From a virus: DNA of 20,096 nucleotides. Below the pieces are notes generated by a model. That model was not told where the DNA came from. It did no database searches and saw nothing but the letters and a program-made list of their open reading frames with translations. Where the stretch lies: IMG/VR virus record IMGVR_UViG_3300043427_000396, positions 1 through 20,096 of that record; one strand, given 5' to 3'. Positions 809 to 20,096 of this stretch are shown here, piece after piece. The position numbers were made by a program, and so were the translations under genes. Positions within the stretch are counted from its first letter, which is position 1; each line of letters begins with the position of its first letter.

Positions 809-839
809 TTTGTAGTGTCAAACTATGTTCATAATTTTG
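809..839 (+). promoter_or_regulatory. Bacteroidota-type promoter for the small RNA
   Basis: TTTG at 809-812 is followed by a 19-nt spacer and TAATTTTG at 832-839. This matches the -33/-7 consensus TTTG-N19..21-TAnnTTTG known from Bacteroides and Flavobacterium. Transcription should begin 4-7 nt after the box, near 844-846. No start codon lies close downstream. A strong terminator follows about 90 nt later, so the promoter appears to serve an RNA gene. Confidence 0.75.
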
Positions 840-844
840 TCCTG

Positions 845-945
845 TCAATCCGAATTGATAGTCGCAATATGAATTCGGGTTTGATTTAAGAGAACCCTCT
901 TTTATTAGACCCACATAGTTGCGACCTGTGTGGGTTTTTTATTTT
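845..945 (+). ncRNA. Small structured RNA with predicted kissing loops
   Basis: About 100 nt lie between a consensus promoter and an intrinsic terminator, with no credible ORF. Three hairpins can be drawn by hand. H1 pairs 847-856 with 872-881 (10 bp, one G-U), then 858-860 with 868-870, leaving the 7-nt loop GTCGCAA (861-867). A middle hairpin pairs 888-892 with 897-901 around AACC. H3 pairs 909-918 with 926-935 (10 bp, one U-G), leaving the 7-nt loop TTGCGAC (919-925), and runs into a U tract. The H1 and H3 loops are exact reverse complements over all 7 nt, predicting a kissing-loop complex. The RNA family is unknown to me. A role in transcription control, dimerisation or host interference cannot be separated here. 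Confidence 0.7.
909..945 (+). terminator. Intrinsic terminator (H3 of the small RNA)
   Basis: The stem ACCCACATAG/CTGTGTGGGT (909-918 with 926-935) closes the loop TTGCGAC and is followed by a run of T to about 945. This is a standard rho-independent terminator. Its loop is the exact complement of the loop of the upstream hairpin at 847-881, so loop-loop contact could change terminator stability. Confidence 0.85.
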
Positions 946-1319
946 GACAGGGTCTTAGAACGGTTTCACCCCTGCTGTTGGTATCTAGATGCAGCTAATG
1001 AAAGATTACGAGTTCTTTAGAGAAAGCTATGTATGATTTGGACTAGGGGCTTGGCCTTTATGGGCCAGCCCTTGGAAGTGTTTTTCTACGTAGCAATATA
1101 GGTAAGACGAAAATCCATGCAATGTCCCTGACCTGACAACATGGTGCTGGAAGCTAGCAATAGTTCACATAGTCAAACGCCTACCGTCGCAGTAAACGGA
1201 TACTCTAAATAGCACTGAAGTAGAAGAATACCCATAGTTCTACTGAAAATTGCAGGATGTAGTGTTTTCCAGCAGTAAAGGTCTAAGTTTATCAATTAAG
1301 TAACTAAACCATCTATAAT
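946..1319 (+). ncRNA. Hairpin-rich non-coding region before ERF
   Basis: These 374 nt contain no convincing ORF on either strand but do contain a series of good stems. One pairs GGGCT (1047-1051) with AGCCC (1067-1071), then GGCC (1053-1056) with GGCC (1063-1066). A second pairs CCATG (1115-1119) with CATGG (1140-1144), and TGTC (1123-1126) with GACA (1135-1138). A third pairs AGTAGAA (1219-1225) with TTCTACT (1238-1244). A fourth pairs GAAAA (1245-1249) with TTTTC (1265-1269). CTGCTG (972-977) could close the whole domain with CAGCAG (1270-1275). It may be a standalone structured RNA or the long leader of the ERF mRNA. No consensus promoter was found inside it. The family is not recognised. 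Confidence 0.5.
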
Positions 1320-14757: not shown

Positions 14758-15903
14758 TTAAATTGAATAAGGAGTCCAATTTGTTCCACTACTAATAGAA
14801 AGATAATAAGATAACCCTACACCCATAAACAAACCAACTATGATTTGCTCTGAACCTGACTTAGTATCCCATACAGCTATTGCATGGTAGTCTTTATTAG
14901 TATCAGGAGTTATATCTGTCCATGTCCCCCCATTGTTGGTAGACTTAAATACTTTACCCTCTGTCGTACCATTTGTCTTTCTACAACATACGTACATATT
15001 AGCTCCAATATCAGCTCCACTCCAAACCCTTTGACCAAGAGAAGTAACTGCAGTCCAAGTTGCTCCAAAATTAGTTGACCTATAAAGAAAACCACTCTGA
15101 GAAGCAGCAAGAGCATATTGTCCATCATCAGATATAGATAACTTACAGAAGTTTCCTGTAACATTAGATTTAAACCAAGTAGCACCATAGTCAGATGAAT
15201 AACATATGTATCCACCCTTCTTAGCACATCTGTAAAATCCAGAAACATTATAATCCCATACACCTATCGCAGCTATCTGATATTGACCAGTAGTCTTACT
15301 TACAGCAACACAGTTTACAGGTGTAGTACCGAATGTAAAAGCACCAGAAGGAGGAACTGTACCAGAGTCTACCGCTATCTTTATTTCGTTAGTTGGAGAT
15401 ACATCGTTTGGCAAAGTTAAGGTAGCAGATGTTGCACCATTCTGAGCTATAGCCACACTCTGTATCAATACACTATTGATATATAGAGATACCCTTACAG
15501 GGCTAAGAACAGCATTACCTGTAAGCTCCACAAATATGTTTTGTGCAGGAATAATATTATTATACTGTCTTATTGTGTTAGAAGTTACATTAAAAGTAAA
15601 TGAAGGTAGATTAGTACCAGTCATGTTTGTAAATACCTTGCCATACTGAGGGTCTAATCTGAAATCTCCAACACTATATAAATCTTCCTTTGTTATAATT
15701 TGATTACCAGACTTAACTGCAAAAGAAGGATTGTTTATATTTTGAACATTAATAAAACCTTCACACCTAGATTTTGTGACACCTTTATTCTCAGTAGGAG
15801 ATGGAAACGCAGTTCCACCAGCAGTAAATACGCCAGTATCTACAGCATCCTTTAGATTGGTATCAGAAACAGTTTGATTATCTGTAAGACTAGACCAAGG
15901 CAT
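14758..15903 (-). CDS. Tail-tip protein with Asp-box propeller repeats, 381 aa
   Basis: The N-terminal part (about 1-190) looks beta-rich and tail-associated, beginning with [20 protein letters not shown]. The C-terminal half has four successive Asp-box turns: [24 protein letters not shown] and SISSGTNW. It therefore carries a partial or complete beta-propeller and may bind host surface polysaccharide. The gene overlaps the S74 tail-fibre gene by 14 nt and precedes a smaller Asp-box protein. I read it as part of the receptor-binding apparatus. Enzyme activity is not shown by the sequence. Confidence 0.7.
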
Positions 15904-18900
15904 TCAGTTTATTTTTAAGTTCTTTAATCTCTCTCTCTAGCGCAGCAATCTTTAGCGTATGAACATCAATGTATTTCACACCAAGAGCACCTTCATTGTT
16001 TACAAGTTCTGGAGCAATAGACATAATCTGTTGAGCTGAGTAGCCATATCTCACATCATTATCTCCCTTTCTAGTAAACTTAACAACGTCAATGCTTAGA
16101 TTAACATTTGGATTCACATCAATTACATTTTTATGCGTAATGTCTGAAGACTCAAAGTAAGATGTAGCGTACACAGAACCATTTACCTGTAATTTATATG
16201 TGCTACCTTGGCTTGATGCGTAACCAATTCTCATACCATTCTCAGAAGCATCCCACAAGAAGTTAGCACTTCCAGCAAAAGTTCCAGAACTGTTGTATTG
16301 AACCTGTCCACTAGAACCACCCGGAGTTCCACCTCCAGAAGGTATAGCCTGTGTAGATAGAACACCACTAGAATCTGCAACAACCATTCTCGTTCCAGAA
16401 CCTGCAAGAGAATGAATAGTTACAGATGAAGATAATGTCATGGTAGCAGAAGCATTATAGAAGAAAGCAATATTTGCAACATCTTCAGTAATAAACTCTA
16501 GTTGACCCGTACCTCTGTGAAGTATTTTTGAGAAAGAGTTAGGCCCTGCATCCATCCTGATTACCCTCAAACCATAATCTGTATATGTAGTATCCCCAAT
16601 TAAATCAAGATATGCATAACCATTTCCGCTTCTTCCTGTTCCTATCTCAAGAGCATACTCTGCAGCACTACCTCCAGCACCAATACAAATAATATTTCCA
16701 ATCTCTTGAAGTATGCTATTCCCTAATGTTGTAGAACCTGTAAACTTAGGTATGAAGTTTGTTGTTCCAGTTCCTGTAACCGGATTAGTTAGTGCATTTT
16801 GTTTGCCATTGAATGTATTCCAATCTGTTGAACTTAATGCACCATTTGTAGAACTGCTTGCTAAACCTAAGCTAAGTTGTTGTGTGCTTAAGCTTAATCC
16901 ATTGGCAGTACCTAGCGTTACAGCACTATGCCTTGCAGCTGTATTAGCAGCAACATTAGTGTTAGCGTTAACCCTAGCTTCTGTATAGTAAAGATTAGTT
17001 CCTTCACTAATATTGGTAGTAGTTAGCGTAACAGCTCCTGTTGAACCATTAACGCTTGACACACCTGTAACAAGTGCAGCTATATTACCATTCAATTTCT
17101 GAATAGCTGACAATACAGTATCACTTGATGTTATTGTGCCTGCACCACTTACATAGCCTGTTAATGTGCTTGCAATAGCTCTAGCATTAGTGAAATATAA
17201 GTTTCCACTCTCAGTAACCTGTGCTGTTGTATAGTCACCACTTGTAGCAACTACTGCTCCAGTCCTTCCAAAGACGCTTGTTACTGCATCTGTATTAAGG
17301 TCAGACCAAGAAGCTGTTACTGTTCCGCCGTCCTGCTGTGTTAATGTAAGAGTTTTAGTTGTTGTTCCTGTTACAGAAGCACTATTAATTTTATCATTGA
17401 ATGCAGAATCCCAATTTGATTGAGCTGCTATTGTAGGTAGAGCATATCCTGCAACATATCCTATATCTATATTACCACTAGATGTTACAGCACTACCCAC
17501 AGTAAATCCTGTTGGAACAGATGCATTCACACTGGTAACTGTACCTACATCCCAATTCCTGTTAGAGCTTAAGTCTAGTGAAGTTCCATTTATTGTTAAA
17601 ATTGTAGAAGAAGAAACACCACCCAAACCTGATAAGGTATAGTTAGGGATATTCAAAACCCCACCACTATAAGTAGCAGCACCACTAGAGCCAGACGTAG
17701 TCAAGCTTATTGCAGCCCTTGCCCTTGCATCAGTATAGTACAAATTAGTAACCTCAGTTATGTTTTCTGTTGTTAATACAACTGCACCAACCTGACCGTT
17801 TACTGATGTAACAGAGTCTGTATTATCAATCTTCTGCCATATAGTTCCATTAAATATAATCCAGTCTCCCACATCCCAGCTAGATACACCATCAATTGTT
17901 GTTGTACCTGCTGTACTTACAATGTAATAGTCACCAGCAGTACCTGTACCACTAGTAATTGTTGGGGTATTGGTAGAAGCATTCCAAGAGCCTTTATATG
18001 TAGAGCCACCTGACAAACCATTAATCTGTCCTTGAATCTTACCAAAAGCAGTAAGGATAGTATCAGATGATGTTATAGCACCTGAAGTTATAGATAGACC
18101 TGTTAATGCCTTACCTGTTACTGCTGTAGTACCAAGAGTAACCGAAACAGTTCCAGAACCAGTAGTTGAAACCTCTCCTGTCAATGAACTGATATACGTA
18201 GATGTAGGTTGAGTTGATAAATTACCAGCATTGTCTGTAACTACCATTCCTGTACCACTACCAGCTAATGTTTGTATTGAAACTGTACCGGTAACTAGAA
18301 GTCCGCCAGAAATCCTAGTATTACCATTTACATCTAATCTATAAGAAGGACTAGGGGCCGAACCTACACCAAGATTTCCAGCAGCGCTAAGCGTCATTGC
18401 TGTACCTCCATTAATATAAAATATTAGCGGAGAAGCAGTATATGTTCCAAGTATTGCACCAACAGCTGTTGTTGATGCTCCTACTCTAAAATCTGTACCT
18501 GCATTTCTTCTAAGCCTAATAGCAGGAGTAGAAGTATTAATTATATCTAAATCAGTTCCCGGTATAGCAGTACCAATACCAACAAATTTAGTAGTTGCAT
18601 CAACGAATAATGTACTAGTATCAACAGCTAGGTTACTCGTTATCTTAGCAGCACCATTTACTTGTAGAGATTCTCCTGTACTTGTGTTTGTATTTATTAG
18701 TACTGCACCTGAAACTGGGTTTAATGCTAAAGGATAATAACTAGCGCCACCCTGTGCGTGAGAAATAGATTGAATATAGTTGGCAAAAGGTGATGCATTA
18801 TATGTACCAAAGCTTAAGCCATTAGTTGTACTAAATGCAAGCTGAAATGAACCCTTATTAGTAGTTGATGGAGCACCAGCAATACTTGAAAATACTACTA

Positions 18901-20096
18901 AGTTAGAATTTACGGTTGTTGTACCAATACCTACTCTATTATTCACGGAATCAACAAATAGTGTATCAGTGTCAACAGTTAGGTTTCCATTAGCATTCAA
19001 AGTCATCTGTGCCGTTGATGAACCACCAGCAGCGAACTTGATGTTGCCTGTTGCGAAGTCGTTTAGTATTGAGATGTCACCAGCGACTGTACCATTATAA
19101 ATTTGTAAGTCAGAAAATGCAAGTGTTTTATAAGCCGTTGTACTTGATGACCTTTTCCCAAACAACCCACTCCCCGAAAGAGAATCAGAAATTACTTGAA
19201 AAGAAGGTGCTGAAAATGTACCAGCAGTGGTATTTGAAATCGTAAATTGTGTTGCTGCATTCTGATTAATAGATTGTGTTATGTTACCATTAGCTGCTAT
19301 TGTTAATTGTGCCGTTGATGAACCACCAGCAGCGAACTTGATTGAACCAGATGCGAAGTCGTTAAGTATTGATATATCTCCAGCAACTAATCCATTATAA
19401 AGTTGCAAATCAGAAGATGCAAGTGTTTTATAAACCGATGTACTTGATGACCTTTTTCCAAATGCACCATTACCAGATGAAGAATCAGACGTTATTTGAA
19501 GATTCGATGACGAAGAAGCACCAGCAGTTGTATTTGAAATTGTAAATTGTGTTGCTGCATTCTGATTCAAACTCAGCGTCATATTCCCCCCAAAGCTACT
19601 CGCCCCCGTTATCTTCGCAGTGCCAGTGACTTGTAGCTTCTCGCCTGTGTCGGACGTAGAACCAACAATAACATTACCACTTGGGTTTAACCTTAATTGA
19701 CTACCATTAATATCAATCCTATTAGCATTCCCAAAAGTTCCTATTTCTAAAAATGCACTTGCAGCAGTAGCGTTATAAATCCAAGCAAAAGCACCACTAT
19801 TTGTTCCACTTTGTCCAGCCCTAAATATTGCATTTGCATTTGACCTTCCAAATTGCACTTCATTTGCTGCACCAGCACCAGTACCTAATGTTACATCCCC
19901 GATAGATAATCTGTGTGTAGGTGTTAGACCTAAACCTAGATTGCCCGCCATATAGTTGTTGGCAGTTCCGTTCATATAGAGATTCCAACGACCAGTTGCG
20001 GCTGCTAAATCTCCATAGAAGCCGTAGTTGTTGGTTGCACCAGTTAAATTTGAATTTGCTCTAAATCCAAAATTATTAGTAACTGTACTTCCAGCA
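15890..20096 (-). CDS. Long tail fibre with S74 chaperone domain (5' partial)
   Basis: The frame is open to the end of the window (20096), so the N-terminus is missing; more than 1400 residues are visible. Much of it is Gly/Ser/Thr-rich fibre repeats, including VGIGT-type turns, three TTxNIxExTNLYYTxAR-type units and [10 protein letters not shown]. The last 85 residues are a Peptidase_S74 intramolecular chaperone: it starts SDITHKN, with the expected Ser and Lys, then YGYSAQQI and a final helix [12 protein letters not shown]. Such domains help the fibre trimerise and then cut themselves off, here predicted just before Ser-Asp (DNA near 16147/16148). Function: host attachment. A 300-bp tandem duplication occurs inside. 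Confidence 0.85.
18968..19567 (-). repeat. Two tandem 300-bp repeats in the tail fibre
   Basis: Units 19268-19567 and 18968-19267 start identically, with [16 protein letters not shown] in both, and keep [19 protein letters not shown] and [12 protein letters not shown] in step. They are exactly 300 bp (100 codons) apart, so the frame is preserved. Differences cluster in the middle of the unit. The nucleotide match is very strong around TGCCGTTGATGAACCACCAG on the plus strand. Confidence 0.85.

Follow-up and report, generated by a model that had tools for sequence, protein, structure and literature searches.

A putative RNA family of Bacteroidota phages with two complementary hairpin loops, one of them in an intrinsic terminator, upstream of large noncoding RNAs

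KR is a predicted RNA family of Bacteroidota phages, approximately 95 to 100 nt in length, that has not been described previously. Comparison of homologs establishes, at the sequence level, that the loop of its first hairpin (L1) pairs with the loop of its terminator hairpin (L2) over all 6 to 7 bases and that this pairing is under strict Watson-Crick selection. The same comparison supports a conserved RNA, its promoter and terminator, and a large noncoding RNA (ncRNA) predicted to follow it obligately downstream. The role of KR is inferred without transcript data. The reading favored here, tentatively and at somewhat less than even confidence, is that KR, with three hairpins, an intrinsic terminator, and a Bacteroidota-type promoter of its own, might act as the leader of the large RNA or as its attenuator.

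The element was recognized in IMGVR_UViG_3300043427_000396, a 20,096-base virus record referred to below as the window. An earlier note on this DNA had described the promoter, hairpins, loops, and terminator, and their coordinates all agree with the sequence and its predicted fold (Table 1). The folded stretch has a minimum free energy of -35.6 kcal/mol, far lower than that of shuffled sequences (z = -5.9). The transcription start near position 845 and the RNA 3' end at the terminator are inferred, in the absence of transcript data. In the window, an inverted repeat, CCTGTCAA/TTGACAGG (841-848/944-951), brackets the entire element. Such pairing of the 5' end with the sequence past the terminator is significant in only 24% of the members and was rejected as a conserved feature.

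Table 1. Predicted features of the KR locus in the window
Feature	Position	Strand	Details	Basis
Promoter, Bacteroidota type	809..839	+	-33 TTTG at 809-812; -7 box TAATTTTG at 832-839	Read from sequence
Hairpin H1	845..884	+	Arms 845-860/868-884; loop L1	Fold; compensatory changes in apical stem
Loop L1, GTCGCAA	861..867	+	Full complement of L2	Double changes at 7/7 pairs
Middle hairpin M	888..901	+	Variable, covarying stem; constant AACC(C) loop (letters partly set by scan pattern)	Double changes in 4/5 stem pairs (19-sequence alignment)
Hairpin H2 (intrinsic terminator)	907..937	+	Arms 907-918/926-937	Fold; covariation
Loop L2, TTGCGAC	919..925	+	Pairs with L1	Covariation in homologs
Terminator U-tract, TTTTTTATTTT	935..945	+	U-rich in every homolog	Sequence
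Large ncRNA, family A (GGGTCTTAGAACGG...)	950..1315	+	Approximate ends; precedes ERF gene at 1320	Conservation without ORF

Taken alone, the loop match in a single window is suggestive and not proof. The chance of 1 in 16,000 given in the earlier note applies to one given pair of loops and overstates the significance for a single window. With every hairpin pair counted, the expectation is about 0.05 per window: hairpin pairs within 120 nt having fully complementary 6- to 8-nt loops are found once on the plus strand of the window and twice in 40 dinucleotide-shuffled windows. The remaining doubt is removed by the covariation seen in homologs. Further versions of the locus were first obtained via protein neighbors, and the loops of the first relatives (GTTGCGT/ACGCAAC and GTAGGAG/CTCCTAC), with 3 to 5 positions unlike those of the window, are still exact complements. 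Three pattern scans of IMG/VR, in which L1 was never constrained against L2, brought the total to 58 loci, representing 44 distinct sequences over 95 nt. A 59th locus (L320), missed by the KR pattern, was located via landmarks of the large RNA alone and has the loops ATTACGG/CCGTAAT. L1 and L2 are exact Watson-Crick complements of 6 to 7 nt in all 44 distinct sequences and in L320. Among the 44 distinct members, 302 of 302 loop-loop base pairs are Watson-Crick, without a single G-U. There are 19 distinct L1/L2 pairs among the 58 loci (20 with L320). The loop lengths change jointly, 6 with 6 (in the GTAGAG members) and 7 with 7, which fits kissing loops with every loop base paired; in the TTCGCAG members an eighth loop-loop pair is possible.

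In an alignment of 19 sequences, the loop-loop pairs have changed on both sides at 7 of 7 positions, with 133 of 133 cells paired and no G-U, and the observed covariation score was never reached by shuffles. The apical stems of H1 and H2 covary too; in H2, covariation is seen at alignment columns 73/83 and 74/82, with one-sided changes at other pairs. The compensatory changes that the earlier note had proposed to seek in both stems and loops are thus present. Loops varying independently, which would have refuted the proposal, were looked for in the homologs and never seen. The strong covariation, together with a promoter at a fixed distance, bears out the idea of a compact RNA gene of about 100 nt with kissing-type loops, one of which is the terminator loop. 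The complementarity might, in principle, be maintained at the DNA level, by template switching between inverted repeats and without any RNA function of the match. The 3' arm of H1 and the 5' arm of H2 do form an inverted repeat adjoining the loops. However, the match is confined to the loop letters themselves, and the intervening stretches of 9 nt and 6 nt that separate the loops from the repeat are not homogenized. The stems also covary separately, and the promoter and terminator are conserved, all of which leaves this explanation with hardly any credibility.

The upstream promoter is also conserved. Of 50 distinct upstream regions, 43 have TAnnTTTG at a gap of exactly 5 nt from the start of the element, an arrangement expected in about 3% by chance. 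This motif corresponds to the -7 promoter element published for Bacteroidota (PMC7366714). Five of the remaining seven regions have TAnnTTCG at the same place; the other two deviate, with a degenerate box in L141 (ACTTTG at the box position, without the standard TA) and no promoter box in L167. The terminator is strong in all members.

At each of the 58 loci, the terminator is followed, on the same strand, by a stretch of about 300 to 450 nt that is conserved as DNA and belongs to family A (19 loci, including the window), B (32 loci), C (4 loci), or D (3 loci). In the window, the family A stretch shows 88 to 95% nucleotide identity to three relatives and contains no ORF. Examples of family B are found in L142, L150, and L152, those of family C in L141, L143, L161, and L178, and those of family D in L185, L186, and L191. 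Reverse scans relying solely on family A and family B landmarks found KR at 17 of 17 true family A matches and at every family B match with a contig long enough upstream; families A and B are never found without KR where upstream DNA exists. Three further matches (L318, L319, and L322) were discarded as chance matches in coding DNA, and two (L321 and L323) are interrupted by contig ends. These data point to at least four unrelated families of putative large ncRNAs, whose apparently obligate association with KR is new here. The earlier note was right about the small RNA and lacked both this downstream partner and the alternative fold considered below. The gene that follows the large RNA is not constant: by eye, it is an HNH endonuclease-like ORF after the family B RNA of L149 and a methyltransferase-like or other ORF at other loci.

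Two folds can be drawn for KR, and the favored leader/attenuator reading rests on an exchange between them. In fold A, consisting of H1, M, and the terminator with the two loops kissing, most transcripts would end as free KR. Fold B would be a rod: the L1-L2 pairing would be retained as its outer helix, and the 3' arm of H1 (GGGUUUGAU) and the terminator 5' arm (AUURRRCCC) would pair with each other. This would undo the terminator, so that transcription would continue into the large RNA. The L1-L2 pair would then serve as a hinge common to both folds, and the loops might diversify since only their mutual fit would matter (or, more speculatively, since cross-talk would be selected against). The mean energies calculated for 43 members are nearly equal, at -29.7 kcal/mol for fold A, with no bonus for kissing, and -31.5 kcal/mol for fold B. 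Fold B is 100% pairable in the 19 sequences, where the only changes are A to G opposite U, and a conserved purine run keeps it so. Its central helix shows one-sided changes only, and the lack of any double compensatory change there counts against the attenuator, as does the lack of conservation of the 5'-end pairing past the terminator. Because the apical stems of H1 and H2 covary and are not needed by fold B, the hairpins and the loop pair are both under selection. With covariation in the stems specific to fold A and only one-sided changes in the helix specific to fold B, fold A is supported by comparison and fold B is plausible.

In the lineage of the window, no promoter box is found between the terminator and the large RNA (0 of 17), which makes read-through from KR the simplest source. 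Overall, a TAnnTTYG box after the terminator is found in 18 of 47 distinct regions, versus 5.6% expected, including 10 of 10 family A members with a TTC-type terminator and 3 of 3 members of family D. Its prevalence in another lineage favors two separate RNAs and weighs against the attenuator, since such a box could drive the large RNA independently. KR could be a free-standing small RNA whose intramolecular kiss provides a compact, nuclease-resistant fold. It would act in trans, its target being either a protein or the large RNA, which would itself be a separate gene. This possibility, considered unlikely but not negligible, would agree with the strong terminator in every member, with the almost fixed spacing of L1 to L2 (55 to 59 nt), and with a tRNA-like gene that in L169 and L196 separates KR from the large RNA, an arrangement that also speaks against the attenuator. 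However, it leaves unexplained why families A and B are never found without KR and why a purine run that preserves the pairing potential of fold B is conserved.

Similar tRNA-like genes, with good acceptor and T arms and an odd core, are found at positions 2026-2144 of the window and in L151, L169, and L196. All of them were missed by standard ARAGORN. When introns are allowed, ARAGORN reports tRNA-Leu, tRNA-Met, tRNA-Phe, and tRNA-Ser with introns of 26 to 53 nt. The genes of the window and L151 contain an extra hairpin (GGAGGGTGGTGTCCATCCTC) in the D-arm region. On the minus strand, positions 15890-20095 of the window are occupied by a very long tail-fiber-like ORF that runs off the window; its C-terminal end resembles, by eye only, an intramolecular chaperone (S74-type) domain.

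Variability in the loops amounts to about 1.04 bits per column versus 0.08 at the 5' end. This contrast is inflated, since the scan patterns themselves partly fixed the basal arms on the 5' and 3' sides. In pairs of members that are less than 6% different outside the loops, a mean of 24% of the loop positions differ; L150 and L155 have a single difference among 80 positions outside the loops, versus 5 differences among the 7 loop positions. An identical loop pair can be seen beside different families of the large RNA, indicating that the loops are not matched to it, and a loop target inside the large RNA was ruled out on the same grounds. Either mutual fit alone counts or diversity itself is favored, and these data do not decide between the two. 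It could be speculated that selection against cross-talk among coinfecting phages drives the diversity.

Covariation cannot distinguish kissing in cis from kissing in trans, as the examples of GOLLD and ROOL show (PMC12286853). In an intermolecular arrangement, KR would form dimers or oligomers head to tail via L1 and the L2 of the next molecule, as phi29 pRNA does, and the loop diversity would reflect self-recognition among coinfecting phages. The layout of pRNA likewise places complementary, nonpalindromic loops on two separate arms (PMC7357161), and GOLLD and ROOL, encoded near tRNAs, assemble by intermolecular kissing loops (PMC12286853). The fast divergence of loops between near-identical copies, as in L150/L155, and the presence of a single copy per genome are also in line with it: each of 16 phage contigs of 33 to 64 kb has one KR copy, and more than one copy per phage was rejected. 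Nevertheless, pairing in cis across such a linker should compete strongly, and the steady spacing of the loops hints at a constraint in cis, so that this arrangement seems rather improbable. A related and more doubtful proposal is that KR is a self-identity tag, in which a lineage-specific loop pair would let molecules recognize their own kind by L1-L2 kissing, for assembly with the large RNA or for control of read-through.

ColE1 RNAI and RNAII also have two hairpins with fully complementary 7-nt loops that diversify between replicons, as the loops of KR do. However, the two ColE1 RNAs are transcribed from opposing strands of a single locus, whereas KR has both loops on one RNA and one strand. 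Besides, one loop of KR belongs to an intrinsic terminator, and KR is found in a phage gene context, with no replication origin or primer RNA. Hypervariable complementary 7-nt loops resembling plasmid incompatibility loops, and a second RNA downstream, might suggest autoregulation in trans, in which released KR would use L1 or L2 to pair with a nascent KR leader, altering terminator read-through, a copy-number-type feedback similar to plasmid antisense attenuation. However, KR would be its own target, and pairing in cis should outcompete pairing in trans, which makes this mechanism highly improbable.

Among other known RNAs, phi29 pRNA is a phage RNA of about 100 to 120 nt with two complementary nonpalindromic loops on different stem-loops (PMC7357161). 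It differs from KR in its 4-bp loop match, its three-way junction, and the lack of an intrinsic-terminator loop, and KR, in turn, has a large ncRNA downstream; the Rfam pRNA model gave no match to KR at the gathering score. GOLLD and ROOL are ncRNAs of phages or prophages that often lie close to tRNAs, and covariation supports their kissing loops (PMC12286853). They are much longer single RNAs than KR, and their Rfam models had no match at the gathering threshold in the window or in 15 other loci. The guanidine-II riboswitch has two leader hairpins for which an intramolecular contact between the loops has been proposed (PMC7357161). That contact is a 2-bp ACGR interaction that binds guanidine and precedes coding genes, whereas KR has hypervariable loops pairing over 6 to 7 bp and precedes ncRNAs. 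The stem-plus-terminator layout of the trpB motif (RF04312; PMC11109978) gives KR full-length matches of 29.5 and 33.9 bits, far below the cutoff of 59, and the reported alignment omits the loop-loop match. This match and those to Hrs10, ncr1241, and LPR10, all subthreshold, were set aside as generic stem-plus-terminator similarity or chance. No Rfam match at the gathering threshold was found for KR or families A to D in the window and 15 loci, in agreement with the earlier claim that no such RNA family has been described; at an E value of ≤1, the stretches of families B and C yielded no more than one match, at chance level.

Searches elsewhere were also negative. Nothing in the 50,697 cultured-phage records matches KR or family B better than expected by chance, and the first 5.4 kb of the window match cultured phages only at tRNA-Trp. 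A covariance model run against 395 genomes of the bacterial phylum of L277 found no KR; its single match (L324) seems to be two ordinary terminator-like hairpins that happen to lie together. Among the matches listed from a pattern scan of GTDB, most are Comamonadaceae sequences of an unrelated kind. No description of KR was found in the open-access literature, coverage of which was incomplete.

KR is a clean natural example in which covariation proves a loop-loop pairing with an intrinsic terminator hairpin as one partner, and the phages that carry it belong to a phylum in which RNA biology has been little explored. It also points to at least four families of large ncRNAs (A to D) that have no Rfam match at threshold and travel with it. 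The diversity of its loops offers a natural test set, in which about 20 matched pairs should work and mismatched combinations should fail. If KR is a self-identity tag, its fast-changing self-complementary loops would constitute an orthogonality code in phages.
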